From: Blautia sp. Marseille-P3201T
Lineage (GTDB): Bacteria > Bacillota > Clostridia > Lachnospirales > Lachnospiraceae
Length of the DNA stretch: 64,000 nt
NCBI RefSeq assembly: GCF_900120295.1
Contig: NZ_LT635466.1
Coordinates: 62,001-126,000, forward strand
Direction: 5' to 3'
A model generated the notes under the pieces. The model was not told the DNA's origin, did not search any database, and was given only the letters and a program-made list of their open reading frames with translations. Position numbers and translations under genes: made by a program. Shown in pieces: positions 70 to 13,633 of the stretch. The number at the start of each line of letters is the position of its first letter. Position 1 is the first letter of the stretch.

Positions 70-1326
70 TCAGCCTTTTCCCAAAGCTTCAAACATCCAT
101 CTTTTATAGGCTTCTACCCCTGGCTGATCAAAGGGATTAACTCCCAAAATACGAGCAGAAACATAGCAGGAAAACAGAAAGAAATAAAATAATTCTCCAA
201 AAGCATACTCATCTAATCTTTCTATTTCCAAGATTAAACACGGCAGTTTTTCCCTGTGAGCTTTTACTGTAGCATGAAAAGAAGCTTTATTAATTTCCCA
301 AAATTCCTTTCCATTTAAATAATCAAATCCATCTGCAACCATGTCTGCCACAGGTGCTAAAGAAGCATTCTTTTCCCGAACATCTAAAAATGTTTCAAAA
401 AGCAACGGCGCTCCGTCCTGAATGTACTGCCCCATAGCATGCAATTCTTCACAAAAATCTCCTGATGACGGAAAAAGTCCTTTGTTATCCTTCCCTTCAC
501 TCTCTCCAAAAAGCTGTATCCACCATTTATAAAACCAACGAAACTGAGGTTCAAAGCTGGCGAGCATTTCTATTTTATATCCTTTTTTATAATATAAATT
601 TCTAAGACAGGCATATTGATATGCAGGATTTCCCATCATTTCTCCACTTGTAAGGTATTTTTGCATATCAAGAGCTCCTGAAACCAGCTTCTCAATATCT
701 ATTCCTGCCACCGCCATAGGAAGAAGCCCTACTGCAGTCATAGCAGAAAATCTCCCCCCTACATCTTCCGGAAATTCCAGAAAAGTATACCCCTGTTCTT
801 GGCATAATTTTTCCAGCGGGCTTCCCTTTGTGCCTGTTGCAATAATTCTTTCATTGGCTTTTTCCTGATACTTATCAGAAAGGAACTTTCTCAGAACACG
901 AAAAGAAGCTCCCGGTTCTAAGGTTTCAAAATTTTTCGCTATACAGTCAATGTATACCGATTTTCCTTCCAACTCTTTCAATGCTTTTTGCAGTTCCCAA
1001 GGGGACAGCGTGTTTCCCATATAGACAATCTTTACTTTATCATCCGACTGCAAAGCTTCAATCACGGATCGGGCAGCATTATTGGAACCACCTACCCCAA
1101 CAATCACAAAAACATCTGCTTTTTCCCGAATATGGACAGCCAGTTCCTGTAATTTTTTCACCTCTTTCGGATTTGCCCACTTATCCACAGAAAACCATCC
1201 TAAAGAGTCCACATATTCACTCTCTCCATCTAATACAGAACGAAAAACAGCCTTGTTTTCCTCCATAATTTCATTTAATTCATCTTTTAAATGAGGATTT
1301 TTATCTTCTATTCTTAAATTCAGCAC
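70..1326 (-). CDS. pgi: Glucose-6-phosphate isomerase (short form)
   Basis: Predicted to interconvert an aldose-6-phosphate and a ketose-6-phosphate (glucose-6-P/fructose-6-P) in the cytoplasm. The 418-aa protein carries the sugar-phosphate-binding loop VGVGGSNNAAR near residue 80, the central block FGESEGKDNKG with its catalytic Glu, ELHAMGQYIQDG, and the C-terminal signature GVNPFDQPGVEAYK with the catalytic Lys. It is shorter than typical 450-550-aa GPIs. The start is a GTG 8 nt after an AGGAG site. It is the last gene of a minus-strand cluster with paralogues of PFK, TPI and class II aldolase, and a palindromic repeat separates it from the larA-like gene. It could be the housekeeping enzyme or a pathway-specific copy; family assignment is secure. 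Confidence 0.93.
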   Translation of the reverse strand: MLNLRIEDKNPHLKDELNEIMEENKAVFRSVLDGESEYVDSLGWFSVDKWANPKEVKKLQELAVHIREKADVFVIVGVGGSNNAARSVIEALQSDDKVKIVYMGNTLSPWELQKALKELEGKSVYIDCIAKNFETLEPGASFRVLRKFLSDKYQEKANERIIATGTKGSPLEKLCQEQGYTFLEFPEDVGGRFSAMTAVGLLPMAVAGIDIEKLVSGALDMQKYLTSGEMMGNPAYQYACLRNLYYKKGYKIEMLASFEPQFRWFYKWWIQLFGESEGKDNKGLFPSSGDFCEELHAMGQYIQDGAPLLFETFLDVREKNASLAPVADMVADGFDYLNGKEFWEINKASFHATVKAHREKLPCLILEIERLDEYAFGELFYFFLFSCYVSARILGVNPFDQPGVEAYKRWMFEALGKG

Positions 1327-1382
1327 GTTTTTATCTCCTTTTATTTTTCATCCGGCGCAACTTCCTATGAAACAATAAAAAC

Positions 1383-1466
1383 TGCCGCACTAAGCGGCAT
1401 TCGGAATATTTGTATCAGACCGAACGTAAAATATACAAATATTCTCGATATACCCCTAATGCGGCA
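1383..1466. repeat. Short palindromic intergenic repeat (copy R1)
   Basis: Two arms (1383-1415 and 1434-1466) pair to form a long imperfect hairpin bounded by TGCCGCA/TGCGGCA and containing GGAATATTTGTAT against ATACAAATATTC. The arm layout (CTAAGC...GGAATATTT...ATATT.TCGATATAC..TAATGC) matches repeat R2 at 5068-5209, but R1 lacks the internal hairpin core. It lies just downstream of the larA-like stop codon and upstream of pgi, so it may act as a terminator or attenuator between them. Confidence 0.7.
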
Positions 1467-1481
1467 ATTGATTAAAACTCC

Positions 1482-2969
1482 TTATTCCATACATGGATGG
1501 CAGTGTCCGTAAGCGTCCATGCAGTCGTCTTCCGGATTTTTCATACAGAGATGAACGGCTGCCTTTTTGAATGTCATTGGTAATGCAAGAATATTTGGAT
1601 TTTCCCCAACGAATTTCTTCTTTGCATCTTCTAATGCTTCTTCAAATGTAGCTCTTGTCTTTAGTCCCATTCCTCTTGCGTATCCCGGTTCCTGTGCACC
1701 TACAATGTAAATTGCGCTTGTATTCATTTCTGCAATATGACCGCAGGAAATCATGCTGAAGCCGTGGAATGGATGGAATGCATTTGTAAAACGATATTTT
1801 CTGATATATTCTTCATTTGTTGCAAAATATTCGCCATAGCGGTTCATATCCGGCAGTGTATTCATATAATCATGCTGGAACATATCATACATTTCTCTTA
1901 AATATGGCCATAATTCTTCATGGAAGAAACCATTGCAAAGAGAAGAACAGATAATAACACAGTTGTCACTCATAACACGTTTATATCTTAATACCTGTGC
2001 GCTTAATGCCTGCATCATCATGATTGGGTTTGTTCCCATTCCATCACCATAGTGGAATTTCTGAGGCATACCAAACACTAAAACATCATACTTCTTCTCT
2101 GCCCAATGTACATAAGTTCTCTTATCCGCTAATTTCCAGCTAATTGGCATCATTTCTTTTGCATATCCGGAATAAATGGCAATCTGTCTGGAATTTGTAT
2201 CTAGAACAGCGTCACAGCAGAAGAATGGATGTCCCATTTTTTCTTCCATGTGCATAGAAATTTCATCAAATTTTGTTCTCATCAAGCTTCCGCCGTTTAC
2301 CGGTGTAAAGTCTTTTCTGTGCATAACAGAAGGAACATGATGGCTTGAAATACTTTTCCAGTTTGTAATACCAGTTGCGCTATGTTTATATCCGCCTGAA
2401 TATCCACCATAAGGATTTCCCTGTACATGACCTACTAAAATAGGAATATCACACTCGAATACATATTTATTCATGTAAACCGGATCACCACGTTTTGTTG
2501 TTCCAAGGTCTACCATGTGGTCTTTATCTTCACTGTCATGGCTGATAATCTGTCCTGTATGCCAGAATTCATTGAATAATTCTTCGCCGAAAATTGCTTT
2601 TGCATCAGACTCTTTACTTCTTGGGTGTAATCCATTGGAAATAATGAATAAAATATCTTTTTTCTCAACACCTGCTGCATATAATTCTTTCAGCATATAT
2701 TTGATACTCATTTTTCTGTGGCTTGTCGGCTGCTCTCCACCTTTTACTCTGTCAGGTACAATAAAAGTAACAGTACTTCCCTTATGTGCCAGTTCAGTAA
2801 GTGTCGGCATTCCGATTGGGTGTGCAAGACTTTCCAGATAAGCTTCTTCCAATTTATCTTCCGGAATATAATCAGGGTCTTTTACTGTTTCTCCCGGAAT
2901 AAAAATATCTGTGCTGTCCGGCAATTCTGCTGCCATAGTACCATGTCCGTATTCAAATTCTAACTTCAT
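1482..2969 (-). CDS. LarA-family nickel-pincer 2-hydroxyacid racemase/epimerase
   Basis: Member of the lactate racemase (LarA, DUF2088) superfamily, which interconverts 2-hydroxyacid stereoisomers using a nickel pincer nucleotide covalently bound to a Lys. From the ATG at 2969 (preceded by AGGAGG; 495 aa) the family residues are all visible: His115 in SNGLHPRS, His181 in VGHVQGN, cofactor Lys195 in YSGGYK and nickel-ligand His211, with the same His-His (66) and Lys-His (16) spacings as Lactobacillus plantarum LarA. The protein is about 70 aa longer than LarA and ends in a Cys/His-rich tail. It lies 16 nt after a TIM-like gene in a sugar-phosphate cluster, and larC is about 10 kb away. The substrate is unknown; a sugar acid or phosphorylated hydroxyacid is an inference. 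The family is certain, the reaction is not. Confidence 0.85.
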   Translation of the reverse strand: MKLEFEYGHGTMAAELPDSTDIFIPGETVKDPDYIPEDKLEEAYLESLAHPIGMPTLTELAHKGSTVTFIVPDRVKGGEQPTSHRKMSIKYMLKELYAAGVEKKDILFIISNGLHPRSKESDAKAIFGEELFNEFWHTGQIISHDSEDKDHMVDLGTTKRGDPVYMNKYVFECDIPILVGHVQGNPYGGYSGGYKHSATGITNWKSISSHHVPSVMHRKDFTPVNGGSLMRTKFDEISMHMEEKMGHPFFCCDAVLDTNSRQIAIYSGYAKEMMPISWKLADKRTYVHWAEKKYDVLVFGMPQKFHYGDGMGTNPIMMMQALSAQVLRYKRVMSDNCVIICSSLCNGFFHEELWPYLREMYDMFQHDYMNTLPDMNRYGEYFATNEEYIRKYRFTNAFHPFHGFSMISCGHIAEMNTSAIYIVGAQEPGYARGMGLKTRATFEEALEDAKKKFVGENPNILALPMTFKKAAVHLCMKNPEDDCMDAYGHCHPCME

Positions 2970-2985
2970 TCTTTTTTCCTCCTTA

Positions 2986-3822
2986 TTATGCATTCATGTA
3001 AAGTGAAATAATTTCCAAATACTCTTCCGGATAATAACCGATTTCCCCTTGAAATCTTGTAAGTGCAATTAAACCACCGTCAATTTCAGGAATAGATGCC
3101 AGCATTGCTGCGTTATCCTGTTTCAGACCTCCGCCATAGACAATGTCCATGCCATCTGTTTTTTCCTTCACAAATTTGGCAATCTTTGTAATATATTCTT
3201 TTCCTGCCGGTGTTTTACCAGGTCCAATAGACCATACAGGCTCATAGGCAATAGTCACCATAGATTTATCCACATCTTTTAATCCCAGTTCAAGCTGTTC
3301 TCCCAGGACTTCCTGCCACTGTTCTAATTCTTCACTTTTTTCACCTATACAGTATAACACTTTCATGCCTCTGTTTACAGCACATTTAATTTCTTTATTC
3401 AAAATAGTATTTACTGCTTTTGTATCTGTCACCCCTGCTTCTGCCAGAATTCCCGCAAGGTTATTTCGTTCTTCACAATGTCCGATAATAACGGTTTCAC
3501 AACCGGCTGCTTTCATAGCTGCTGCCGGACGCCCTGTGGTAAATGCTCCAAAATTTTTACCCGGAGCCACGTCATCTCTGAAAACTCCCTGGCATCCAAT
3601 CTGAACAGGACTGTTTTCTGTTTTTGCTCCACAGGCAGAAAACAGATGAATTTCCGGAAAGAACATTGCAAATTCTACTTCCTCAGGAGAATATTTTTTC
3701 AATTCCTCCTGTGTATTTTCTACAATATATTTTCCCCAGTCTTTCATATCAGCAATTCTGTTAACACCGCCCAGCTCTGCCGGTACATCAAATCTTTTCA
3801 AATTCAAATAAATATGTTTCAT
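2986..3822 (-). CDS. Triose-phosphate-isomerase-like protein
   Basis: A TIM-barrel isomerase of the TPI family, 278 aa against the usual ~250. Catalytic residues are in register: Lys9 in NLK, His115 in IIGHCEER (canonical IGHSERR) and Glu194 in AYEPVWSIGPGKT. The phosphate loop is YGGGL instead of YGGSV, and TGRPAAAM replaces TGEISAAM. These shifts suggest a paralogue acting on a related small ketose/aldose phosphate rather than the housekeeping enzyme. The ATG follows AAAGGAG. It lies 16 nt after the PFK-like gene and is probably cotranscribed with it and the larA-like gene. Fold and active site are clear; substrate is inferred. Confidence 0.85.
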   Translation of the reverse strand: MKHIYLNLKRFDVPAELGGVNRIADMKDWGKYIVENTQEELKKYSPEEVEFAMFFPEIHLFSACGAKTENSPVQIGCQGVFRDDVAPGKNFGAFTTGRPAAAMKAAGCETVIIGHCEERNNLAGILAEAGVTDTKAVNTILNKEIKCAVNRGMKVLYCIGEKSEELEQWQEVLGEQLELGLKDVDKSMVTIAYEPVWSIGPGKTPAGKEYITKIAKFVKEKTDGMDIVYGGGLKQDNAAMLASIPEIDGGLIALTRFQGEIGYYPEEYLEIISLYMNA

Positions 3823-3838
3823 GTTGCTCTCCTTTATT

Positions 3839-5017
3839 TTAATATTTTCCTGACTGTGTATTAAAAGAAATCATATCAGGAAGTTCTTCCCCAATCAAAG
3901 GTCTGCACCAGTCTAAAAATGCCTGTGTAATACCATTTCCTTCTTCATTGATAAATTCATCCGGCATTGTCCGTTCATACATCATAACTTCATCAATATC
4001 CACAAGAAATGGTTTCATTTCATACGGATTTTCAGAAACTCTGGAAAATGCCACCATCTTTCCTGATTCACCATCCAAAGCCGCTCTGCATGCCAGTTCT
4101 CCTGCCAGTTGTGCCTCTTCAATATCAACTTTACTTTGCATAAAAATAGATGCTCTTCCTAAAAGTCCCGGTTTTTCCCCTCTGGCTTTATATCCCAGTT
4201 TCTGGATAACCAGATTTGCCAGATGAGAACTTACATCTCCAAAATAAGTAGCACGCTCTGTTTTAAAAACAGGTTTTACAATAGGTTTTCCCTCTTTATC
4301 TGTCAGGCCTTCGCTGGCAACCACCAGAATTCCTGATTTCTTCTCAAGAAGTTTTTTTACATCTTCAATAAATTTATCTTCATCAAAAGCTCTTTCCGGA
4401 AGATAAATCAAGTCAGGGGCATATCCCTTTTCTCCTGCCAGGGCACTGGAAGCTGTAATCCACCCTGCATTTCTTCCTGATGCTTCCATGACAACCACAT
4501 GAATAGGTAAAGAACGCACATCTGCGGCTAATTCCTGCGTGCAGGCAGCCATATATCTTGCAGCACTTCCAAATCCGGGACTGTGGTCTGTCACTGCAAT
4601 GTCATTGTCTGTTGTTTTAGGAATTCCCATAACTTTCACATCAAGATTGCGCTTCTGACAAGTTTTATGCAGTTTTCCACAAGTATCCATAGTTCCATTT
4701 CCGCCATTAAACAATACATATTTAATGTTTTCTTCTTCCAGAATATCTGCCATTTTTTCATAATGTTCCTGTTCAATGGGATCTCTGGATGTTCCAATCG
4801 CTGTGCCCGGAGTCTGCAGCAATAACTTTAATTTTTCTTCCGGTACATTTTCCAGTTCCAGAAAATCTTTTTTCAAAAATCCGCCTGTGCCATTATTCGC
4901 ACCATAAATATGTCCGATTTTTTCTGATTTTTTTGCTTCCTTTATTGCACCATACAAGGAGCCGTTCATTACTGCTGTAGGACCACCTCCATGCACAATC
5001 AATAAATTTTCTGCCAT
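3839..5017 (-). CDS. 6-phosphofructokinase-family kinase (mixed PPi/ATP signature)
   Basis: A phosphofructokinase-fold kinase of 392 aa from the ATG at 5017, 8 nt after GGAGG. The N-terminal loop HGGGPTAVMNG (residues 9-19), the donor loop GGNGT (105-109), the catalytic PKTTDND (133-139) and the substrate loop MEASGRNAGW are present. Lys134 in PKT is typical of PPi-dependent enzymes, whereas GGNGT has the small Gly of ATP enzymes, with Asn in place of the usual metal-contacting Asp. Donor and acceptor are therefore uncertain. It follows the ABC transporter operon after repeat R2 and precedes the TPI-like and LarA-like genes, suggesting phosphorylation of a ketose-phosphate intermediate in this locus. 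Confidence 0.85.
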   Translation of the reverse strand: MAENLLIVHGGGPTAVMNGSLYGAIKEAKKSEKIGHIYGANNGTGGFLKKDFLELENVPEEKLKLLLQTPGTAIGTSRDPIEQEHYEKMADILEEENIKYVLFNGGNGTMDTCGKLHKTCQKRNLDVKVMGIPKTTDNDIAVTDHSPGFGSAARYMAACTQELAADVRSLPIHVVVMEASGRNAGWITASSALAGEKGYAPDLIYLPERAFDEDKFIEDVKKLLEKKSGILVVASEGLTDKEGKPIVKPVFKTERATYFGDVSSHLANLVIQKLGYKARGEKPGLLGRASIFMQSKVDIEEAQLAGELACRAALDGESGKMVAFSRVSENPYEMKPFLVDIDEVMMYERTMPDEFINEEGNGITQAFLDWCRPLIGEELPDMISFNTQSGKY

Positions 5018-5067
5018 ATTCTTTTCCTCCAAATCTTCCAGTTTTCTATTCAATAAACAGAAAATAG

Positions 5068-5209
5068 AGCTGTCACATTAAGCAGAAATCCGGAATATTT
5101 ATATATTTTCAGCGAATTTGTTGAGCACGCTTTGAGATTATAAGCTCAAAGTGAGCGCAAACTGAGCGTGAAATATATAAACATTTTCGATATACACTTA
5201 ATGCAACAG
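5068..5209. repeat. Long palindromic intergenic repeat (copy R2, full length)
   Basis: An inverted repeat of about 140 bp. The outer arms (GCTGTCACATTAAGC... against ...CTTAATGCAACAGC) enclose AT-rich arms with TTTATATATTT, and an inner core (about 5112-5170) reads GCGAATTTGTTGAGCACGC then a CTTTGAG/CTCAAAG hairpin, then GTGAGCGCAAACTGAGCG. The same core recurs at 13505-13600 (reverse orientation) and 56072-56213. It lies downstream of the substrate-binding-protein gene and upstream of the PFK-like gene. Confidence 0.8.
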
Positions 5210-5281
5210 CCCCATCTCAAAATTTCAACAGCTTAATGTTTTACAGTCATGTCTGGCAATTTTTTCTTGTTGCTGAGTCAA

Positions 5282-6346
5282 TTATTTTCCTGCTTCTGTC
5301 ATAATGTCAAACAATACATAATCTTCAACTGGAGCTTCTTCTGTAATCTTACCGTTGTCTAAGAAGTTTTTCTGCTGGATTTCATAGTATCCTTTTATGC
5401 TTCCGTCTTCAACACCTTTTAACAGTTCTTCTGATGTAATCCATGCACCATCTGTTGTCTGTCCCATTGCTGTTTCAACGTCTGTCTTTGTTTCGTTTGC
5501 TACATATCCTGCAACTTCTTCAAAGTTTTCTTCTTTTGCACCGAAGTCCATTGCTTTGTAGAGTGCTTTTGTAAATCTTACTAATAAATCTTTGTTCTTT
5601 TCTGCATATTCAGGCATACATACCCAGCTTGCAGGGTCTGCTGCGATATCAGAGAAGTCTGCATTACTTACGAATACCTGTGCATCATCACCTAATTCAT
5701 CTGTGATAACTTTTGTATTTGGTGACCATGGAGCACAAGCATCAATAGAACCGGAAATCATAGCACTTGGCATATTAGTAACTTCCATGTTGTAAGCTTC
5801 AATATCATCCATTGTAAGACCAACAGAGTCTAATGCACGTAATAAGATTGTTTCAGATGATGTACCGGAAGCATAAGCTACTTTTTTACCTTTTAAGTCT
5901 TCCAGAGAATTTACTCCATGAGATTTTAATCCCATTACACAGTCAGCATCACCCAGCTGCTGGAAGCAAAATACGTCAACATTTCCCTGAATTGCAAGAG
6001 TATGAGCACCAGGTCCGATGTAAGCTACATCCATAGAACCGGATTCCATAGCAGCGATTTCTGTTGGGCCATCATCGAATTTTGTCATTTTCACTTCGAT
6101 ACCCTGTTCTTCAAAGTATCCTTTTTCTTTTGCTGTTGTTACTACCCATAAGGAAGCGTAGTTTGGCATGTAAGCCACGTTTACTACATCAAGCTCTTTC
6201 TTTTCATCTTTTTTCTCTTCTTTTCCATCTGTTGCTTCTGTTTTTGTTTCTTCCTTTTTTGGTTCTTCAGAGCTTCCACCACAGCCTGCTAACATAGACA
6301 TCGCTGTTACTCCTACTAAAAGCATGGATAATAATTTCTTCTTCAT
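5282..6346 (-). CDS. NitT/TauT-type ABC transporter substrate-binding lipoprotein
   Basis: Extracellular solute receptor of an ABC importer. The start is the ATG at 6346, eight nt after AGGAGG, giving 354 aa; the longer open frame upstream lacks a ribosome site. A lipoprotein signal (KKKLLSMLLVG...) ends in the lipobox LAGC, followed by an acidic Lys/Glu-rich linker and an SsuA/NMT1-like domain beginning VNVAYMPNYASLWVV. Members of this family bind small organic molecules such as sulfonates, taurine or pyrimidine precursors; this ligand is unknown. It is the third gene of a permease-ATPase-receptor operon embedded among sugar-phosphate enzymes, which suggests the ligand feeds that pathway. 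Confidence 0.9.
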   Translation of the reverse strand: MKKKLLSMLLVGVTAMSMLAGCGGSSEEPKKEETKTEATDGKEEKKDEKKELDVVNVAYMPNYASLWVVTTAKEKGYFEEQGIEVKMTKFDDGPTEIAAMESGSMDVAYIGPGAHTLAIQGNVDVFCFQQLGDADCVMGLKSHGVNSLEDLKGKKVAYASGTSSETILLRALDSVGLTMDDIEAYNMEVTNMPSAMISGSIDACAPWSPNTKVITDELGDDAQVFVSNADFSDIAADPASWVCMPEYAEKNKDLLVRFTKALYKAMDFGAKEENFEEVAGYVANETKTDVETAMGQTTDGAWITSEELLKGVEDGSIKGYYEIQQKNFLDNGKITEEAPVEDYVLFDIMTEAGK

Positions 6347-6415
6347 TTTAAGTTCCTCCTTAAAAATAATATAGTTTTTTATTCTCACCGGGCTTACCCC
6401 ATTGTAAGTTCTGAA

Positions 6416-7207
6416 TTATTTTCTTACTTCCAGATATTCCTGATATACCTGTCCCCAGATATGATTTTTCAGTTCAATAAATCTTTCGCTCATTTTTGTT
6501 TCCTGATCTCTTGGATATGGAATATCAATATCTACAACTTCTTTAATACGTCCCGGACGAGCACTCATAATTACAACTCTTGTCGCAAGGACAATTGCTT
6601 CTTCAATATCATGCGTAACGAAGAAACATGTTTTATTTTCTTCCTGCCATGCTTTTAAAAGCTCTGACTGAAGCTGTGTTCTTGTCTGTGCATCCAAAGC
6701 TCCAAATGGTTCATCCATAAGAAGAACTTCCGGGTTCATTGCATAAGCTCTTGCAATAGCTACACGCTGTTTCATACCACCGGATAATTCCTTTGGATAA
6801 GAGTCTGCAAATTTTTCCAGTTCAACCATTTTCAAATATTTCATGGAAATAGCTTCACACTCTTCTTTTGACATTCCCTTTAATTTCAGTCCGAATTCAA
6901 CATTCTTCTTTACTGTCAGCCATGGGAACAATGCATACTGCTGGAAAACAACGCCTCTGTCTGTTCCTGTTCCCTTAATCGGTTTTCCATCCACCAAAAT
7001 CTGACCGCTTGTAGGCTCTAAAAGACCTGCAATAATATTTAATAAGGTAGATTTACCACATCCGGATGGTCCGATTACGCAGATAAATTCATTTTCTTTA
7101 ATATCAAAATCCACACCGTTTAAAGCAACAACCTCACCTTTTCGTGTGTTGTATTTCTTTTCAACGCCCTGAATACTTACTTTTATATTTCCCTCTTTTC
7201 CTGCCAT
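6416..7207 (-). CDS. NitT/TauT-type ABC transporter ATP-binding protein
   Basis: ATPase subunit of the importer, 263 aa. Walker A is GPSGCGKST, the signature is LSGGMKQR, Walker B is VLLMDEPFGALD, and the switch His lies in FFVTHDIEEA. This arrangement is typical of SsuB/TauB-like ATPases. It overlaps the upstream permease gene by 25 nt, indicating translational coupling, and is followed 69 nt later by the receptor gene. Confidence 0.94.
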   Translation of the reverse strand: MAGKEGNIKVSIQGVEKKYNTRKGEVVALNGVDFDIKENEFICVIGPSGCGKSTLLNIIAGLLEPTSGQILVDGKPIKGTGTDRGVVFQQYALFPWLTVKKNVEFGLKLKGMSKEECEAISMKYLKMVELEKFADSYPKELSGGMKQRVAIARAYAMNPEVLLMDEPFGALDAQTRTQLQSELLKAWQEENKTCFFVTHDIEEAIVLATRVVIMSARPGRIKEVVDIDIPYPRDQETKMSERFIELKNHIWGQVYQEYLEVRK

Positions 7208-7977
7208 GATGTTAACTTCCTTTCAAAGTATTTAAGAACTTTCTCAGCCAGCATACCGATAACACCGATAATAATGATGTAAAGCAGCATTGGTGTTGTT
7301 TCATAGGAGTTTGCCAGAGATTTAATTCTCATACCAAGACCTGCAATCGCTCCTGTAGATTCTGCGGCAATCAATGTTGTAAGCGCTGTTGAGATACCAA
7401 GTCTGACTGCTGTAATAATAAATGGTGTTGTTGCCGGGAAGATAACCTTCACGAACAGATTTGCATCATTTGCACCTAATACTCTTGCAGCTTTAATCAA
7501 AGTTTCATCCACATTGATAACACCCTGGAAGATTGTAACTGTCATAATTAAAAATGTTGCAAGACAGATAACAATAATCTGAGGTGTACGACCTACACCT
7601 ACACCGATAACTACCAGTGGTACATAAGCCAGTGGTGGAATATTTCTGATAAACTGGATCCATGGCTCTAAGATAAATCTTACCGGACGATACCATGCCA
7701 TCAAAAACGCTACCGGTACTGAAATCACAAAGCCAAGTAAAAATCCCCAGAATACAGAAATCAAACTGCTTGCAATATCCTCTAAAAGAATTCCTCTCTC
7801 TACCATAAGTCCAATGGATTGTAATACTTTAATCGCATTCGGAAAACATCTGGCAGTCTGTGGAGTAATAGATAAGATTGTCCACACCAGCATCGCTACT
7901 ATAAATGAAATCAGCAGCCATATCCCTTTTGGTATTTTGCCTATGATGTCGGCTCCACCTTTACTTTTTTTCCCCAT
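7183..7977 (-). CDS. NitT/TauT-type ABC transporter permease
   Basis: Inner-membrane permease of the importer, 264 aa with about six hydrophobic segments and the cytoplasmic EAA loop around AARVLGANDANLFVKVIFP that docks on the ATPase. It is first in the operon, preceded by an AGGAGG site and by a good promoter at 8050-8078. The family (SsuC/TauC-like) imports small anions or amino-sulfonates; the substrate here is not determined by sequence. Confidence 0.93.
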   Translation of the reverse strand: MGKKSKGGADIIGKIPKGIWLLISFIVAMLVWTILSITPQTARCFPNAIKVLQSIGLMVERGILLEDIASSLISVFWGFLLGFVISVPVAFLMAWYRPVRFILEPWIQFIRNIPPLAYVPLVVIGVGVGRTPQIIVICLATFLIMTVTIFQGVINVDETLIKAARVLGANDANLFVKVIFPATTPFIITAVRLGISTALTTLIAAESTGAIAGLGMRIKSLANSYETTPMLLYIIIIGVIGMLAEKVLKYFERKLTSWQEKREI

Positions 7978-8049
7978 TTTAATCCTCCTGTTTCTTTTTG
8001 TTTCAGCATTTCGTACTAAAACGTATTTCTTATTCGTTATTGTATGGTT

Positions 8050-8100
8050 ATTATCCCCTATATGGGGTTGAAAATCAATACGATTTTACGCAAACGTTTG
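8050..8100 (-). promoter_or_regulatory. Promoter and operator-like palindrome of the ABC operon
   Basis: On the minus strand, TTGATT (8073-8078) is separated by exactly 17 nt from GATAAT (8050-8055). Just upstream of the -35 lies the perfect palindrome CAAACGTTTG (8091-8100), within TTACGCAAACGTT (8086-8098). That 13-mer matches the site near the lacI/nagB promoters at 12 of 13 positions. It resembles LacI-family/CcpA (cre) operators. Confidence 0.65.
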
Positions 8101-8164
8101 AGTTATTTGTGCATTTTTTAACAACCTTTTGTTTCTATTTCAGTTTTTTTATGCATAAATACAA

Positions 8165-8210
8165 AACAGGACGTTTTGGCATTCATCACTTTTACCTAAA
8201 ACGTCCTGTT
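8165..8210 (-). terminator. Rho-independent terminator after the aldolase gene
   Basis: A perfect 13-bp stem (AACAGGACGTTTT at 8165-8177 with AAAACGTCCTGTT at 8198-8210) and a 20-nt loop, followed on the minus strand by TTTTGTATTT. It ends the nagB-nagA-aldolase transcript before the ABC promoter. Confidence 0.85.
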
Positions 8211-8225
8211 CAAAAGAATATCTAT

Positions 8226-9377
8226 TTACATTTTTTTGTAACGTTCAATCATTTCTTCCAAGGAAACCTGCTCAACCAGAGGTGCTTTTCCGAAAGAACC
8301 AAATTCCACAATCAAAGTTCCGATTGCTTCTTTTACACCTTTTTCAATAACTTCTACCAGCGCTGCTGTATCATCATCTTTAATTGTACCATACATAACG
8401 GTATCCATAATTGGAGGAAGGAAAGCTCTTGGATCAAACTGGTCTTTCTTTTCCTCTAATAACTGATATACTCCGCCAATGGAAGCGCTGTCACGTTTTG
8501 ACGGGTTATTTTTAAAGAACTCTTTCATATTTCTTGTAACAGCCAAACGAATATCTGTATCTACATTGATTTTTCCAATACCGCAAGGAATTGCAGCTTT
8601 TAATTCCTCAATAGAAATACCGTAAGCATTCTGGATATTTCCGCCTAAAGCATTGATTTCATCTACAATGTATTTTGGCACTGTAGAAGAACCATGAGAT
8701 ACTAATACACCGAAAAGATTTTCATGCATCATGCATTCTTTAATAGCAATTGCAATTTCTTTTCTTAATTTTACATCTTTTCCCTTTGATGCTCCATGCA
8801 TAGTTCCGTATGAAATTGCCAACGCATCACAACCTGTCTTTTTGAAAAATTCCACTGCTTTTAATGGGTTTGTGTAAGTAGATGTTGAAGAAAATACATG
8901 ATCCTCAACTCCGGCAAGTACACCTAACTCACCTTCTACTGACACCCCTCTTGCATGGGCATATTTAACAACTTCTCTTGTCAGTTCAACGTTTTCATCA
9001 AAAGGAAGGGAAGAACCATCAATCATAACTGATGTATATCCGCCTTCAATAGCCGCTTTACAAGAGTCAAAATTTTTACCATGATCTAAATGAAGAACTA
9101 CCGGAATAGGTGAGTCTTCCGCAAATTTTTTCACAGCATTTGCGATATTTTTTGCGCCGATTTTCTTATCTTCCAAAGTAGCGTTTAAGAAATCTGTTCT
9201 TCCGCCCATAAATCCGTTTGCTAAATCTGCCCCCTGTAAAATAGCTGCAGAACGGAACATTTCATGAACTTCAATAGCAGCTTTCGCCTGTGCAACTGCA
9301 TTTACATTAAATGCTCCCTGTGCAAAATGGTATTTGTCAACAGTTTCCAATAATGGTCTTAATGGTATTAATGGCAT
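8226..9377 (-). CDS. Class II fructose/tagatose-bisphosphate aldolase-like protein (long form)
   Basis: A zinc-dependent class II aldolase, predicted to cleave a ketose bisphosphate into two three-carbon units. The catalytic and zinc regions are visible: LHLDHGKNF, GVSVEGELG, YGTMHGAS, VSHGSSTVP (canonical HGGSG) and IGKINVDTDIRLA. At 383 aa it is clearly longer than GatY/KbaY/FbaA aldolases (~285 aa), and the altered phosphate-binding HGSST suggests a non-standard substrate or a divergent subfamily. The ATG follows AAAGGAG. It is the third gene after nagB and nagA and is closed by a strong terminator, so it probably acts on a phosphorylated product of those enzymes. Confidence 0.88.
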   Translation of the reverse strand: MPLIPLRPLLETVDKYHFAQGAFNVNAVAQAKAAIEVHEMFRSAAILQGADLANGFMGGRTDFLNATLEDKKIGAKNIANAVKKFAEDSPIPVVLHLDHGKNFDSCKAAIEGGYTSVMIDGSSLPFDENVELTREVVKYAHARGVSVEGELGVLAGVEDHVFSSTSTYTNPLKAVEFFKKTGCDALAISYGTMHGASKGKDVKLRKEIAIAIKECMMHENLFGVLVSHGSSTVPKYIVDEINALGGNIQNAYGISIEELKAAIPCGIGKINVDTDIRLAVTRNMKEFFKNNPSKRDSASIGGVYQLLEEKKDQFDPRAFLPPIMDTVMYGTIKDDDTAALVEVIEKGVKEAIGTLIVEFGSFGKAPLVEQVSLEEMIERYKKM

Positions 9378-9390
9378 AATTTTTCTCCTT

Positions 9391-10545
9391 TTATCTTTCT
9401 ATTTGCTTTCCTTTTACAAAAGTATCTACAATATCATAGCTTTCATCTACAATCAGAATATCCGCATCTTTTCCAGCTTCCAGACTTCCGATTTTATCAT
9501 CTACACCTAAAAGCTTTGCAGGGTTCATTGTTAAGAGAGGAAGCACATCTTCCATTTCTGCCCCTGTAAAATCAATCAGTCTCTTCAGAGCTGTTCCTGT
9601 TGTCAGGGTACTTCCTGCGCGCACACCATTTGATTTTAATTTTGCATCTCCGTCTTCGACTACCACATCATTGACACCCAGCTTATACTCTCCGTCCGGA
9701 AGTCCTGCTGCCATAATAGAGTCGGTTACTGCAACTACTTTATCATATCCTTTTGCTTTCAAAAACAGCCTTACACTGCCCGGATGCAGATGACGTCCGT
9801 CACAAATCGCCTCACAATAAATATCAGACTCCAAAGCAGCTCCCATCATTGACGGAAAGTGCTGATGGAATAACTTCATTGCATTACAGGTATGTGTACA
9901 TGCTGTTGCTCCATTTTCAATACATTTCATAGCAGTCTCATAGTCTGCACCAGAGTGTCCGATTGCAACAGTAATACCCATTTTTTTTATTTCCGGCACA
10001 GCCTCCGGAATACCTTCTACTTCCGGTGAAACTGTAATATAACGAATATTTCCTTCTGCTTCTTCCTGATATTCTTTCAAAAGCTCCATATCTGCTTTTC
10101 TTAGAAGTTCTTCCGGCATAGCGCCTTTAAATTCTACAGAAAGAAATGGTCCTTCCAAATGAATACCCAAAAGATTTGCACAATTTGCGTGATCTTTTTG
10201 GTGTTTTAATGCTTCATGAATACATTTTGTAGTCTGCTCTTTTGTATCTGTCAGAATAGAGCAAAGCCATGAAGTTGTTCCCTGAAGAGCAAAAAAATGA
10301 CCAATTTTCTCAAAATCATCTTTTAAAGCATCATTAACGTCTACACCACATCCACCATGTGTATGAATGTCAATAAAACCCGGAATAACTGATTTCCCTG
10401 AAGCATCATAAATATTTCCTTCTCTTTTCCCTTCTCCAGGACTGCAAATTTCACAGATTTTTCCATCTTCTATACATAAATCTTTTCTCTCCATACGACG
10501 CTTGTCGTATCGATATACATAACCATTGGTAATCCAGGTTTTCAT
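9391..10545 (-). CDS. nagA: N-acetylglucosamine-6-phosphate deacetylase
   Basis: An amidohydrolase predicted to remove acetate from N-acetylglucosamine-6-phosphate or a related amino-sugar phosphate. Metal and active-site motifs occur in order: IDIHTHGG, HLEGPF, AIGHSGADY, HTCNAM (canonical HLFNAM), ICDGRHLHP and VTDSIMAAG, whose Asp is catalytic. The length (384 aa) fits the family. Two ATGs are possible; that at 10545 is 7 nt from GGAGG and preferred over 10551. It directly follows the nagB-like gene and is cotranscribed with it and the aldolase. Confidence 0.92.
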   Translation of the reverse strand: MKTWITNGYVYRYDKRRMERKDLCIEDGKICEICSPGEGKREGNIYDASGKSVIPGFIDIHTHGGCGVDVNDALKDDFEKIGHFFALQGTTSWLCSILTDTKEQTTKCIHEALKHQKDHANCANLLGIHLEGPFLSVEFKGAMPEELLRKADMELLKEYQEEAEGNIRYITVSPEVEGIPEAVPEIKKMGITVAIGHSGADYETAMKCIENGATACTHTCNAMKLFHQHFPSMMGAALESDIYCEAICDGRHLHPGSVRLFLKAKGYDKVVAVTDSIMAAGLPDGEYKLGVNDVVVEDGDAKLKSNGVRAGSTLTTGTALKRLIDFTGAEMEDVLPLLTMNPAKLLGVDDKIGSLEAGKDADILIVDESYDIVDTFVKGKQIER

Positions 10546-10547
10546 TC

Positions 10548-11375
10548 TCATCCCTCCAATGCAGCTACAAACTCTGTAATTTTCAGATTAATATCCTGAT
10601 GATTTGTCAACAGGGATACAGGGAAATCTGAAGTTGCTTCTCCGTAAGCAGTTCTTCTCACAACAGCTCTGTGCCAATTTCTAAAACATCCCAAACGAAT
10701 TTTTCTGGCATGGGCAATTTCATAAATACCGATTGTCACGCAATATTTTGGCATATCTTCCAATGCTCCATTGAAATCTCCAATGGCATTTGCTGTTCTT
10801 GTTTCTTTTGTAATATCTAAAACTCTTGTTTTTTGTGCCAGGAATTCTTCATTGCTTAAAGATGGATCAGCTTCATTAAAAGCAACATGTCCATTAATTC
10901 CAATACCTCCAAAGCAGATATCCACACCACCCAGCTTTTCAATCAACTGTGGGATATATTCTACGTTTTCAGGGTCAGGAAATACTCTCTGTTCTTCTGG
11001 CATAACCAATTCAGGATCAATCTGACTGTACACGGTTCTGTTCATAAAACCACGGAAGCTTAACGGATGTGTTTCCGGAACCCATTTTTTATCATCATCC
11101 AGATATTCGTCCATGTTAATAAACCAAACATTCTTTAAACTGATTTTTTCCTGATTTACCATTTCCACAAAATAAGGATACTGTCCTACAGGACCTACAG
11201 GACAAATAAATACTGTTTTCTTGCCTTCTGCATTATTTTTCTTAATTTCTTCCGCCATTTCTTCTGCCATGGATCTAAATACTGCCGCATTATCTTCCAT
11301 TACAATCACCGGCAGCTTGGCTCCTTTGTTTAAAAGCTCCTCTTTTGTGTAAGTGTAATATTCATGTTTCGTCAT
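10548..11375 (-). CDS. NagB-like glucosamine-6-phosphate isomerase/deaminase
   Basis: A NagB/RpiA-fold enzyme, 275 aa. The motifs WFINMDEYL and FGGIGINGHVAFNE correspond to the active-site Asp/His region of glucosamine-6-phosphate deaminase. It is divergent from NagB proper (the usual NEP is NEA, and the C-terminus differs, KIRLGCFRNWHRAVVR), resembling the AgaI-like isomerase branch. It is first in the nagB-nagA-aldolase operon, with an ATG after GGGAGG and a TTGAAA-17-TATAAT promoter. It probably acts on an amino-sugar or related 6-phosphate; the exact substrate is unresolved. Confidence 0.88.
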   Translation of the reverse strand: MTKHEYYTYTKEELLNKGAKLPVIVMEDNAAVFRSMAEEMAEEIKKNNAEGKKTVFICPVGPVGQYPYFVEMVNQEKISLKNVWFINMDEYLDDDKKWVPETHPLSFRGFMNRTVYSQIDPELVMPEEQRVFPDPENVEYIPQLIEKLGGVDICFGGIGINGHVAFNEADPSLSNEEFLAQKTRVLDITKETRTANAIGDFNGALEDMPKYCVTIGIYEIAHARKIRLGCFRNWHRAVVRRTAYGEATSDFPVSLLTNHQDINLKITEFVAALEG

Positions 11376-11424
11376 TTTAAACTATCCTCCCTTGTTTTTA
11401 CATTATCAAACCTTCATATTTACA

Positions 11425-11453
11425 ATTATACGATAACTATTTTTCATTTTCAA
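11425..11453 (-). promoter_or_regulatory. Promoter of nagB-nagA-aldolase operon
   Basis: On the minus strand, TTGAAA (11448-11453) is followed after 17 nt by TATAAT (11425-11430), 50 nt upstream of the nagB-like start codon. Confidence 0.7.
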
Positions 11454-11491
11454 CAAACCTTTCTCAAATATTGCGTTTTTTTCTACTCAAT

Positions 11492-11546
11492 TTATGCAAA
11501 CGTTGTCTTAAATTCCGTTGTTTTTATTCGTCATTTCGGTTATAAT
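11492..11546 (+). promoter_or_regulatory. Operator-like site and promoter of the lacI-larC unit
   Basis: TTATGCAAACGTT (11492-11504) matches the site upstream of the ABC operon at 12 of 13 positions. It is followed by TTGTTT (11518-11523), a 17-nt spacer and TATAAT (11541-11546), a good promoter for the LacI-type gene at 11584. The site lies between the two divergent promoters and could serve both. Confidence 0.65.
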
Positions 11547-11583
11547 ATATCCATATAGCACTATTGTATTGTGAGGTTTTAAT

Positions 11584-12618
11584 ATGACACTAAAAGAAAT
11601 TGCAAAAGAAGCCAACGTTTCTATTTCTACTGTTTCCAGAGTAATTAACCAAAAAAACACAAAAGCTGCCAGCCCTGAAGTGCAGGAGCGTATCTGGGAA
11701 ATTGTACGAAAAAGCGGATATACCCCTAACTCAACAGCTCGTGCCTTAAAGCTTGGGCCAAAGACTCCTTCTGTAGAAATGCCCGCCCGCACCATTGCCT
11801 GTATTTATGCAAGAGGTGACTCTGCTGTTTCGGACCTTTTCTTTTCCCATATTGCAAAGGCCATTGAACAGGAAGCTTTCAAAAGCAACTTTTTCATCAA
11901 ACATTCCTTTACCGCATTAGATTTAGAAAATCCCGATGTAACCCTTAGAATTGCCAATTCTCCTGTAGATGGAGCAGTTATCTTAGGACGATACGATGAA
12001 CATATCCTGAAACTTTTTACGAAAAATTATAAACACATCATCTATGCCGGACTCAATCCCATGGAAGATAAATATGATCAGGTAGTATGTGACGGAAAAG
12101 AAATTACTTTTAGTGCAGTTTCCTATCTTCATGAACTGGGTCATAATAAAATTGGCTATATTGGAGAACAAAATAATGAAATTCGCTATACTGCATTTAA
12201 GGCTGCCCTAGAAACGTTGGGATTACCTTTTTTACAAAGAAACACTGCCAATGTAAAGCTTTCTCATGAAGGCGGTTATCAAGGTGCGCTTCATTTAATT
12301 AATACCAAGGCAGATATTACTGCTGTTTTTTGTGCCAATGACAATACTGCCATCGGAGCTATCCGAGCATTTCGAGAACACGGCTATCGCATTCCCGAAG
12401 ATATCTCCGTTATCGGCGTTGACGATATTGAAACGGCTCAATATCTTTCACCAATGCTTACCACTGTACATATCCCTTTAGAAGAAATGGGCAGAATGAC
12501 AGCCAAAATTCTCATAGACCGTATTACCGGCGGCCACCGTATTCCTTTAAAAACAGTATTACCTTATTATATAGCCAAAAGGGACACTTGTGGCAAAGCG
12601 CCCAAAAACAGAAAATAA
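11584..12618 (+). CDS. LacI-family transcriptional regulator
   Basis: A 344-aa regulator with an N-terminal helix-turn-helix (MTLKEIAKEANVSISTVSRVIN) and hinge, followed by a periplasmic-binding-protein-like sensor domain with the characteristic VFCANDNTAIGAIRAFREHG and ISVIGVDDIETAQYLSP. It is divergent from the nagB-nagA-aldolase operon and 20 nt upstream of larC. It is the obvious candidate for binding the two TTAYGCAAACGTT sites, thereby controlling both minus-strand operons and itself. The effector is likely a sugar or sugar phosphate from the pathway. Confidence 0.92.
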   Translation: MTLKEIAKEANVSISTVSRVINQKNTKAASPEVQERIWEIVRKSGYTPNSTARALKLGPKTPSVEMPARTIACIYARGDSAVSDLFFSHIAKAIEQEAFKSNFFIKHSFTALDLENPDVTLRIANSPVDGAVILGRYDEHILKLFTKNYKHIIYAGLNPMEDKYDQVVCDGKEITFSAVSYLHELGHNKIGYIGEQNNEIRYTAFKAALETLGLPFLQRNTANVKLSHEGGYQGALHLINTKADITAVFCANDNTAIGAIRAFREHGYRIPEDISVIGVDDIETAQYLSPMLTTVHIPLEEMGRMTAKILIDRITGGHRIPLKTVLPYYIAKRDTCGKAPKNRK

Positions 12619-12638
12619 CATCAGGAGGACTTTTTATT

Positions 12639-13478
12639 ATGAAAAAAGCACTTTATTTTGATTGTGCATCAGGAATTAGCGGAGATATGTCTGTAGCCGC
12701 TTTACTTGATTTAGGTGCAGATAAGAAAATGCTTTTAGACACCCTAGACAGTTTAAACCTTTCCGGATATAAAATTGAAATTTCAGAAGTGGAAAAATCA
12801 GGCATTGCTGCCTGTGACTTCAACGTTTTATTAGATAAAAAACATGAAAACCACGACCACGATATGGAATATCTGCATGGCAAAACACAGGAACACAGCC
12901 ATAAAGAGTGCCAGTGCGAACATGAACATCCACATAATATTCATACACACCATCATCATGAACACCGAAGTTTGCCTGACATTCTCTCTATTTTAGAACA
13001 TAGTGATATGACAGTAGGAGCAAAATCCATGGCTTCTAAAATTTTTGAAATTCTTGCTGAAGGAGAAGCCCATGCTCATCGCGTGCCAAAAGAACAAGTA
13101 CATTTTCACGAAGTCGGTGCTGTAGACTCTATTGTGGATATTGCCGCTTTTGCAATCTGCATGGATTTTCTGGGATATGAAGAAGTTTTCCTGCCTGTAC
13201 TAAAAGAAGGACAAGGCACAATCCGCTGTCAGCATGGTATTCTCCCTATTCCGGTTCCGGCTACTTCCAATATTGTATGTGCACATAATCTTCCGCTCTC
13301 CATTCTGCCTGTACAGGGAGAGCTTGTGACACCTACCGGCGCTGCAATTGCCGCTGCAATTACAACTTCCTTTACCTTGCCTGAAACCTTTCAGATTAAT
13401 AAAATCGGCATAGGTGCAGGGAAAAGAAAATATGAAGTTCCGGGAATTTTGCGGGTGATGGAAATTCAGTATTGTTAA
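12639..13478 (+). CDS. larC: LarC (N-terminal, LarC1-type) nickel-pincer cofactor protein
   Basis: LarC is the CTP-dependent nickel insertase that completes the nickel-pincer cofactor of LarA. The start is the ATG at 12639 after AGGAGG (279 aa). Visible features are FDCASGISGDM at the N-terminus, a His-rich insertion (about residues 68-107) plausibly binding metal, HFHEVGAVDSIVDI, VPATSNIV, PTGAAIAAAI and the end GIGAGKRKYEVPG. The protein stops where the second half (LarC2) normally begins, and no LarC2 frame is visible in the 150 nt beyond. In L. plantarum LarC is made by a frameshift joining LarC1 and LarC2. It is cotranscribed with the LacI-type gene, linking cofactor supply to the larA-like gene at 1482. 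Confidence 0.88.
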   Translation: MKKALYFDCASGISGDMSVAALLDLGADKKMLLDTLDSLNLSGYKIEISEVEKSGIAACDFNVLLDKKHENHDHDMEYLHGKTQEHSHKECQCEHEHPHNIHTHHHHEHRSLPDILSILEHSDMTVGAKSMASKIFEILAEGEAHAHRVPKEQVHFHEVGAVDSIVDIAAFAICMDFLGYEEVFLPVLKEGQGTIRCQHGILPIPVPATSNIVCAHNLPLSILPVQGELVTPTGAAIAAAITTSFTLPETFQINKIGIGAGKRKYEVPGILRVMEIQYC

Positions 13479-13504
13479 GAAATCTTCATTTTAAATACAT
13501 ATAA

Positions 13505-13600
13505 AGAATATCTATACATTTTCTGCTCCGTCTGCACTCACTTTGAGCTTACAGTCTTAAAGCGTGCTCAACAAATTCACTAAAAATGTATAGATATTCC
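13505..13600. repeat. Long palindromic intergenic repeat (copy R3, reverse orientation)
   Basis: Arms AGAATATCTATACATTT and AAAATGTATAGATATTCC pair across the core. Read on the minus strand the core is GTGAATTTGTTGAGCACGC, then TTTAAGACTGTAAGCTCAAAG, then TGAGTGCAGACGGAGC, clearly homologous to R2 and R4. It sits between the convergent larC and HTH genes and probably terminates transcription from both sides. Confidence 0.78.
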
Positions 13601-13633
13601 TGCGTATTGCTTATTGTAATATTTTCTCAATAC

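Follow-up and report, generated by a model that had tools for sequence, protein, structure and literature searches.

A glycolysis-like gene cluster with an Asn-type LarA enzyme in Blautia, and its possible role in the breakdown of sugars carrying a terminal sulfate or sulfonate

The left end of a 64,000-nt stretch of the genome of Blautia sp. Marseille-P3201T (contig NZ_LT635466.1, positions 62,001 to 126,000; the whole stretch is called the window below) carries a cluster of genes resembling those of amino-sugar catabolism and upper glycolysis, together with a gene for a LarA-like nickel-pincer enzyme. The question raised by this locus is which sugar such a set would degrade and what LarA would do there. 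A first-pass annotation had proposed a dedicated route in which LarA inverts the stereocentre of a 2-hydroxyacid; sulfur-tagged sugars as the substrate were absent from it and are added in this analysis. The answer favored here, to which we give an even chance, is that the cluster forms an operon for the sulfoglycolysis-like catabolism of a sugar with a terminal sulfate or sulfonate, and that LarA acts on dihydroxyacetone-X. X is the group on the terminal carbon, where glycolytic sugars bear phosphate, and is most likely a sulfur oxyanion, either an O-sulfate, as in N-acetylglucosamine-6-sulfate (GlcNAc-6-sulfate), or a C-sulfonate. This answer is drawn from the loci of relatives rather than from the window's own neighborhood.

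The cluster genes are paralogues. The source genome (2.94 Mb in 10 contigs, 99.7% complete) has further copies of tpi (C10:212589, on contig 10), pgi (C9:73302), fba (C10:108554), nagA (C10:1182531) and nagB (C5:28264) as well as three further PFK matches, which speaks against housekeeping glycolysis for the cluster genes and bears out the expectation that second copies of pgi, pfk, fba and tpi would be found. The two kinds of copy share 21-39% identity. The profile scores of the other copy and the cluster copy are 324 and 121 bits for tpi, 337 and 246 for fba, 300 and 108 for nagB, and 356 and 185 for pfk. They are nearly equal for nagA (304 and 311) and pgi (69 and 71), so that for these two the profiles cannot tell the housekeeping copy, whereas the phosphate motifs do.

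In their usual forms, GPI binds the terminal phosphate of a sugar with its SxSGTT loop, NagB with its TGSTP loop and a Lys, NagA with an Arg, and TPI with loops 7 and 8. The other copies in the genome retain the usual phosphate motifs. Among the cluster copies (those above identity and length limits, after removal of copies sharing identical last 200 residues), the GPI-like proteins have AKNFET (30/32) or AKNFQT (2/32) for SKSGTT, and the NagB-like proteins have VG--P in all 49 copies and R.WHR or R.WHK in the same 49. In the NagA-like proteins QH replaces HR (51/51), and in the TPI-like proteins loop 7 reads YGGG (91/91; GGS becomes GGG) and loop 8 reads ALTR instead of GGAA (87/91), which brings in a new Arg. 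The shifts at substrate-binding loops noticed in the first-pass annotation are thus supported by conserved changes. The TPI-like protein has a TIM fold in an AlphaFold2 (AF2) model (predicted local distance difference test score, pLDDT, 87.9), and its K9, H115 and E194, presumably the catalytic Lys, His and Glu, are invariant in 16 sequences. Because the phosphate motifs are lost and the catalytic residues kept, the substrates of the cluster enzymes probably have no terminal phosphate, with the chemistry at C1-C2 unchanged. The PFK-like and aldolase-like proteins belong to other subfamilies, and little is therefore drawn from their differences.

Two sets of larA loci were compared with the window. 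Set A consists of the 31 loci found in 397 genomes of the family, the window's own locus being one of them; this sample contains two further genomes of the genus, and LarA was matched in neither. Set B consists of the best 80 of at least 580 stretches from a separate wider scan for LarA relatives and, being made of the best-scoring stretches, leans to close relatives. The sets overlap by 8 loci, so that totals out of 111 are not independent. The presence or absence of a gene was judged by self-chosen identity limits, and several loci end early at contig edges, 78 of the 111 having 7 kb on both sides. A TPI-like gene was found in all 31 loci of set A, followed by PFK (25), NagB (19), NagA (18), FBA (17), TauE (12), GPI (6) and LarC (3); the corresponding numbers in set B are TPI 69, FBA 58, PFK 56, NagA 40, NagB 38, GPI 33, TauE 28 and LarC 3. 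Furthermore, the TPI-like gene adjoins larA on the same strand with a gap of <400 bp in 28/31 and 67/80 loci. Gene order differs from locus to locus, so the linkage exceeds the inheritance of one block, and chance linkage of larA with glycolysis-type genes is excluded. The linkage anticipated by the first-pass annotation is therefore conserved for larA and the glycolysis-type genes but not for larC, which is near larA in just 3/31 and 3/80 loci. The closest named LarA loci among the matches listed are from Blautia (98% identity in a Blautia sp. metagenome-assembled genome, 95% in B. hansenii), and Blautia, Roseburia, Coprococcus, Gemmiger and Flavonifractor are represented in the best 80 loci.

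The LarA-like protein aligns with two proteins of known structure, LarA_Bw (PDB 9q3j; 1077 bits over 493 residues) and LarA_Sp (PDB 9q2u; 824 bits over 483 residues), and alignment with these and with malate racemase puts Asn185 in the place of LarA His174. This Asn is found in 99/99 distinct copies, the second catalytic His being absent throughout, and H115, N185, K195, H211, H306, Y307, H399 and H402 are invariant among them. With cofactor Lys195, nickel His211, His115 and Asn185 all in place, the protein is assigned by its sequence to an Asn-type LarA group together with LarA_Bw and LarA_Sp. It shares the cofactor Lys, the nickel His and one catalytic His with the lactate and malate racemases, and it differs from them in the Asn, in its score against NCBIfam NF033504 (LarA; 110 bits, cut-off 460) and in a C-terminal domain for which no Pfam match was found. 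A strict LarA lactate racemase has two catalytic His (His108 and His174 in L. plantarum), of which only the first is present here; the Asn and the low score argue against a classical lactate racemase. The claim that all key residues are present accordingly holds for His115, Lys195 and His211, but His181 does not occupy the position of the second catalytic residue. With that residue missing, and with no lactate racemization observed for LarA_Sp in the accessible part of Gatreddi et al. 2025 (PMC12611868), the proposed inversion of a 2-hydroxyacid is not supported either. The same part of that report describes LarA_Bw and LarA_Sp as octamers with an unidentified ligand, proposes nothing beyond "a carbohydrate" as their substrate, and already lists their glycolysis-like neighbors, so that the arrangement is not undescribed, as the first-pass annotation had supposed.

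The gene behind the LacI-family regulator, annotated as larC, does belong to the LarC family but encodes only its N-terminal half. LarC is split here into two distant genes, and the second half, the sole other LarC match in the genome (profile positions 135-375 of 375, C10:431863-432573), lies next to larE on contig 10 (both within C10:431863-433411), with larB at C10:590408. The larB, larE and two LarC halves identified by profile suggest that the host could make the nickel-pincer nucleotide (NPN) cofactor. As the LarA query gave one match in the genome, the cluster enzyme may be the only consumer of this cofactor.

The association with sulfur comes from the other larA loci. Once the window's own genes are set aside, TauE/SafE was the family found most often (12/31 loci) in a clustering of all neighbors made without prior expectation. 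Overall, TauE is present in 40/111 loci (12/31 and 28/80), including 37 of the 78 with 7 kb on both sides; it lies on the same strand as larA in 39 of the 40 and <400 bp from it in 17, and it occurs in 35/63 amino-type loci. Further support is provided by locus L064, whose transaldolase scores 302 bits to BmSF-TAL versus 149 to the next transaldolase. This SF-type transaldolase replaces PFK and aldolase in L064, where TPI-LarA occupy the place that sulfolactaldehyde (SLA) reductase has in sulfoquinovose clusters. Relatives of the L064 transaldolase, at 50-82% identity, occur in 24 other genomes, in loci of the sulfoquinovose type that contain GH31 (19 of 24), DUF4867 (19), SLA reductase (15) and a fucose-isomerase-like gene (15). 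The cluster LarA, TPI, PFK, FBA, NagA, NagB and GPI are absent at 45% identity from all 24, and neither the GH31 sulfoquinovosidase of such clusters (35% identity) nor the sulfo-TAL-type SLA reductase was found in any larA locus (0/31 and 0/80 for each), which speaks against an ordinary sulfoquinovose cluster. DUF4867, a sulfoglycolysis marker, occurs in one larA locus (L097).

The proposed route would be related to, and distinct from, known pathways. As in the sulfoglycolysis of sulfoquinovose (sulfo-EMP, sulfo-TAL, sulfo-TK), a sugar with terminal sulfur would be cleaved to give one ordinary and one sulfo fragment. A TauE-type exporter is common to both, and one larA locus has an SF-type transaldolase; in contrast, the larA loci have no GH31 or SLA reductase (0/111), have NagA/NagB and a PFK-A type enzyme instead, and have TPI-LarA as the last module. 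The catabolism of GlcNAc-6-phosphate employs NagA and NagB of the same families in the same deduced order, but the cluster copies have lost the phosphate motifs, and the genome has another nagA and another nagB outside the cluster. Separately, locus L208 contains an SF-type transaldolase (50% identity), a split transketolase, a NitT/TauT-type importer and an RPE-like gene and is possibly another sulfo-sugar route; its genome (G315) also carries larA locus L049.

The modules upstream of LarA vary. They comprise NagA/NagB; GPI with GH3, in some loci also with an MFS_2 carrier; the transaldolase of L064; a split transketolase with an AraD-like protein (L061), for which PDB matches gave no separation of sulfo from ordinary transketolase; nucleoside hydrolase, RPE and RpiB (L052, L154); and an E1/E2/E3 complex (L059). 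All of these could yield glyceraldehyde-3-X. Hexosamine, hexose, pentose and glycerol-type modules converge on LarA. In L143 and L149, which have no TPI, LarA is followed by an importer with a sulfonate-family binding protein and by a type 2 glycerol-3-phosphate oxidase paralogue (scores of 285 and 295 bits against a cut-off of 460) that could convert glycerol-3-X into dihydroxyacetone-X; L139, L144 and L148 resemble these two and end at contig edges. L129, a GPI-type locus, encodes an oxidase of this type at a distance of about 7 kb from larA, and the presence of the oxidase alone is therefore no proof. Other genes were also seen: L088 (2704-3762) has a relative of the GlmD sugar deaminase (154.5 bits, cut-off 580) beside a second aldolase, with no PFK detected in that locus, and a 356-aa open reading frame (ORF) lies between the GPI-like and aldolase genes of L133 (6791-7861) and L134 (6784-7854), that of L133 matching cupin and mannose-6-phosphate isomerase domains.

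As to the identity of X, sulfate is suggested by the predominance of NagA/NagB and by Sulfatase-family genes with C-x-P-S/A-R motifs in L065, L120, L129, L135 and L138, the first of which also has GH20 and GH2. B. bifidum is reported to free GlcNAc-6-sulfate from mucin without assimilating it (PMC11186840). Sulfonate is suggested by the SF-type transaldolase and TauE, and by glycerol-3-sulfonate (DHPS) being a gut metabolite (PMC12890257). A methylthio or deoxy sugar, hinted at by the nucleoside-hydrolase loci, was rejected, as TPI keeps the new Arg in L052 and L154.

Several observations weigh against a sulfur-tagged sugar as the substrate. TauE, sulfatase, GH3, DUF4838 and SF-type transaldolase were not matched in the 81 kb of the window's own neighborhood (the window plus L035). 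Most larA loci are without TauE, the TauE counts stand without a background rate, and only 2/16 GPI-only loci have it; the SF-type transaldolase occurs in 1/31 (L064) and 0/80 loci, and 11/80 loci of set B have no TPI nearby. The binding proteins match the aliphatic-sulfonate family best yet score below its cut-offs. The pentose and nucleoside loci L052, L154 and L061 match no known sulfo-sugar and fit sulfate or sulfonate poorly, and the AraD-like protein of L061 passes an ordinary AraD subfamily cut-off. Finally, 7/51 NagA copies retain an Arg one place further on, and the cluster NagA is above the canonical nagA cut-off and scores slightly higher than the other copy (311 versus 304 bits).

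The reactions that we infer for the proposed operon would begin with import of the sugar by the NitT/TauT-type transporter. The NagA-like enzyme would remove the acetyl group and the NagB-like enzyme ammonia, producing fructose-6-X, which the GPI-like enzyme would form from glucose-6-X. Phosphorylation at C1 by the PFK-like kinase and cleavage by the aldolase would yield dihydroxyacetone phosphate (DHAP) and glyceraldehyde-3-X, the latter being isomerized by the TPI-like enzyme to dihydroxyacetone-X, which the nickel-pincer enzyme would convert without an external redox partner. Lactate (or methylglyoxal) together with sulfate or sulfite would be the most parsimonious outcome, with TauE as the exporter in the loci that have it. 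The enediolate of dihydroxyacetone-X might lose X to give methylglyoxal, and a hydride shift from C1 to C2 at the nickel-pincer cofactor would then give lactate, needing one His and not two; alternatively, the elimination might be performed by the TPI-like enzyme. Covalent binding of sulfite to the nickel-pincer cofactor has been described (PMC12611868, accessible part). The LarA-like protein would then be a nickel-pincer desulfatase or desulfonase with dihydroxyacetone-3-sulfate or -3-sulfonate as its substrate; elimination together with an internal hydride shift would release sulfate or sulfite and leave lactate or methylglyoxal. We put this proposal forward tentatively, as possible yet less likely than not.

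The strongest competing explanation, although unlikely, retains the sulfo-sugar route and has TPI-LarA merely isomerize a C3 sulfo-compound, for example by inverting sulfolactaldehyde, which TauE would export intact. LarA enzymes are isomerases, and members of the TauE family also export organosulfonates, the sulfite/sulfonate transporter SqwE being an example (PMC12890257); however, the step would seem pointless without a following dehydrogenase, and none is common in the loci. Rather unlikely, in our opinion, is that X is a free hydroxyl, so that unphosphorylated GlcNAc, glucose, ribose or glycerol would yield DHAP and glyceraldehyde, and TPI-LarA would turn glyceraldehyde or dihydroxyacetone into the isomer lactate. 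This would account for the lost phosphate sites, for the GH3 and nucleoside-hydrolase loci and for the lack of a sugar kinase ahead of PFK in the window, but it leaves TauE, the SF-type transaldolase and the new TPI Arg unexplained; in addition, hydroxide would be expected to leave poorly, and ordinary glycolysis would cost the cell less.

A carboxylate as X has a low probability. Uronic-acid-type sugars would then be degraded to tartronate semialdehyde. This compound is a true 2-hydroxyacid on which LarA could act as an epimerase or isomerase, and 2-hydroxyacids are the known class of LarA substrates (PMC11770544, available part), which makes this the strongest form of the idea in the first-pass annotation. 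Nevertheless, the second catalytic His is absent, the sulfur-gene associations are left unexplained, and no uronate enzymes were noticed among the scanned neighbors, although no search was aimed at them. Least probable of all is plain duplicated glycolysis with larA incidental, in which the copies use ordinary phosphorylated sugars: it would fit the intact family-level domains, the NagA score and a PFK above the PPi-PFK subfamily cut-off, but it is opposed by the conserved loss of the phosphate motifs, by TPI-larA linkage in 31/31 and 69/80 loci despite shuffled order, and by the other genomic copies, which make the cluster copies redundant.

Compared with LarA_Bw (PDB 9q3j) and LarA_Sp (9q2u/9q3k), the system described here has the same family, the same Asn for the second His and glycolysis-like neighbors, while PMC12611868, in its accessible part, neither draws a connection to sulfur nor tests for paralogues or surveys the modules upstream. 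The motif loss, the TauE association, the transaldolase locus and the convergence of modules on LarA are added beyond prior print, and no title or abstract in the open-access literature searched proposes such a pathway. A paralogous route dedicated to amino sugars and tied to a nickel-pincer protein, as proposed in the first-pass annotation, is supported; the observation made there was mostly right, and its mechanism mostly not. For the Asn-type LarA family, which has solved structures and no known reaction, the sulfoglycolysis-like reading offers a pathway, a substrate class and testable partner enzymes, and the family looks common in gut bacteria, at least 580 stretches encoding relatives. 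If X is sulfate, the cluster could be a consumer of the free GlcNAc-6-sulfate left by B. bifidum during mucin breakdown (PMC11186840, available part); if X is sulfonate, a nickel-dependent branch would be added to gut sulfonate metabolism. A LarA desulfatase or desulfonase, if real, would release sulfur from sugars without oxygen or radicals and would allow gut Bacillota to use GlcNAc-6-sulfate in the absence of a 6-O-sulfatase.

The features of the window locus are collected in Table 1. The enzyme families named in the first-pass annotation were confirmed by profiles, NagB being a divergent relative (Pfam 23.9 bits, cut-off 27). The metabolic genes share one strand and run leftward from 11375 in the order NagB-like, NagA-like, class II aldolase, permease, ATPase, binding protein, PFK-like, TPI-like, LarA-like and GPI-like, with LacI and larC divergent from nagB.

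Table 1. Genes and candidate operator sites of the cluster, numbered from the first letter of the window (ABC, ATP-binding cassette)
Feature	Position	Strand	Evidence or remark
GPI-like sugar isomerase	70..1326	-	Pfam PGI 73.5 bits; phosphate motif SKSGTT -> AKNFET
LarA-like nickel-pincer enzyme, Asn subfamily	1482..2993	-	Lar_N 135.9 bits; start probably 2969
TPI-like isomerase, phosphate loops altered	2986..3822	-	TIM 121.4 bits
PFK-like kinase, PRK14072 (PPi-PFK) subfamily	3839..5053	-	NF010675 416 bits, cut-off 273
NitT/TauT-type solute-binding protein (NMT1-type)	5282..6388	-	best NCBIfam match SsuA_fam 139.9 bits, below cut-off 163.5
importer ABC ATPase	6416..7207	-	ORF, named by sequence; homologue in 14/31 loci at >=65% identity
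importer ABC permease	7183..7977	-	ORF, named by sequence; homologue in 13/31 loci
possible LacI box GCAAACGTT	8090..8098	+	upstream of permease gene; weak
class II aldolase-like, long form	8226..9377	-	F_bP_aldolase 246 bits
NagA-like deacetylase (NagA/amidohydrolase)	9391..10551	-	TIGR00221 311.5 bits, above cut-off 225.65; HRDPG -> QH-x-P-x
NagB-like deaminase/isomerase, TGSTP loop lost	10548..11375	-	TIGR00502 108 bits, below cut-off 236.9
possible LacI box GCAAACGTT	11496..11504	+	between nagB-like gene and lacI; weak
LacI-family regulator	11584..12618	+	LacI and Peripla_BP_3 domains
LarC N-terminal half (LarC1)	12588..13478	+	Ni_insertion positions 1-233 of 375; TIGR00299 188 bits

The search for LacI boxes gave a weak result, with 2 copies in 64 kb against 0.44 expected and at least 2 copies in 6/100 shuffles. 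Just left of the window, after the GPI-like gene and on the same strand, lies a ferredoxin-like ORF of 128 aa (L035:16605-16991), a counterpart of which, 96% identical, is present in the Blautia locus L080. Between genes of the cluster there is also an interspersed element, about 127 nt long and in part palindromic (window positions 5064-5215, 13491-13617 and about 1420-1465); its arms are 78% complementary, and a 17-nt core is common to the copies at 1445 and 5187.

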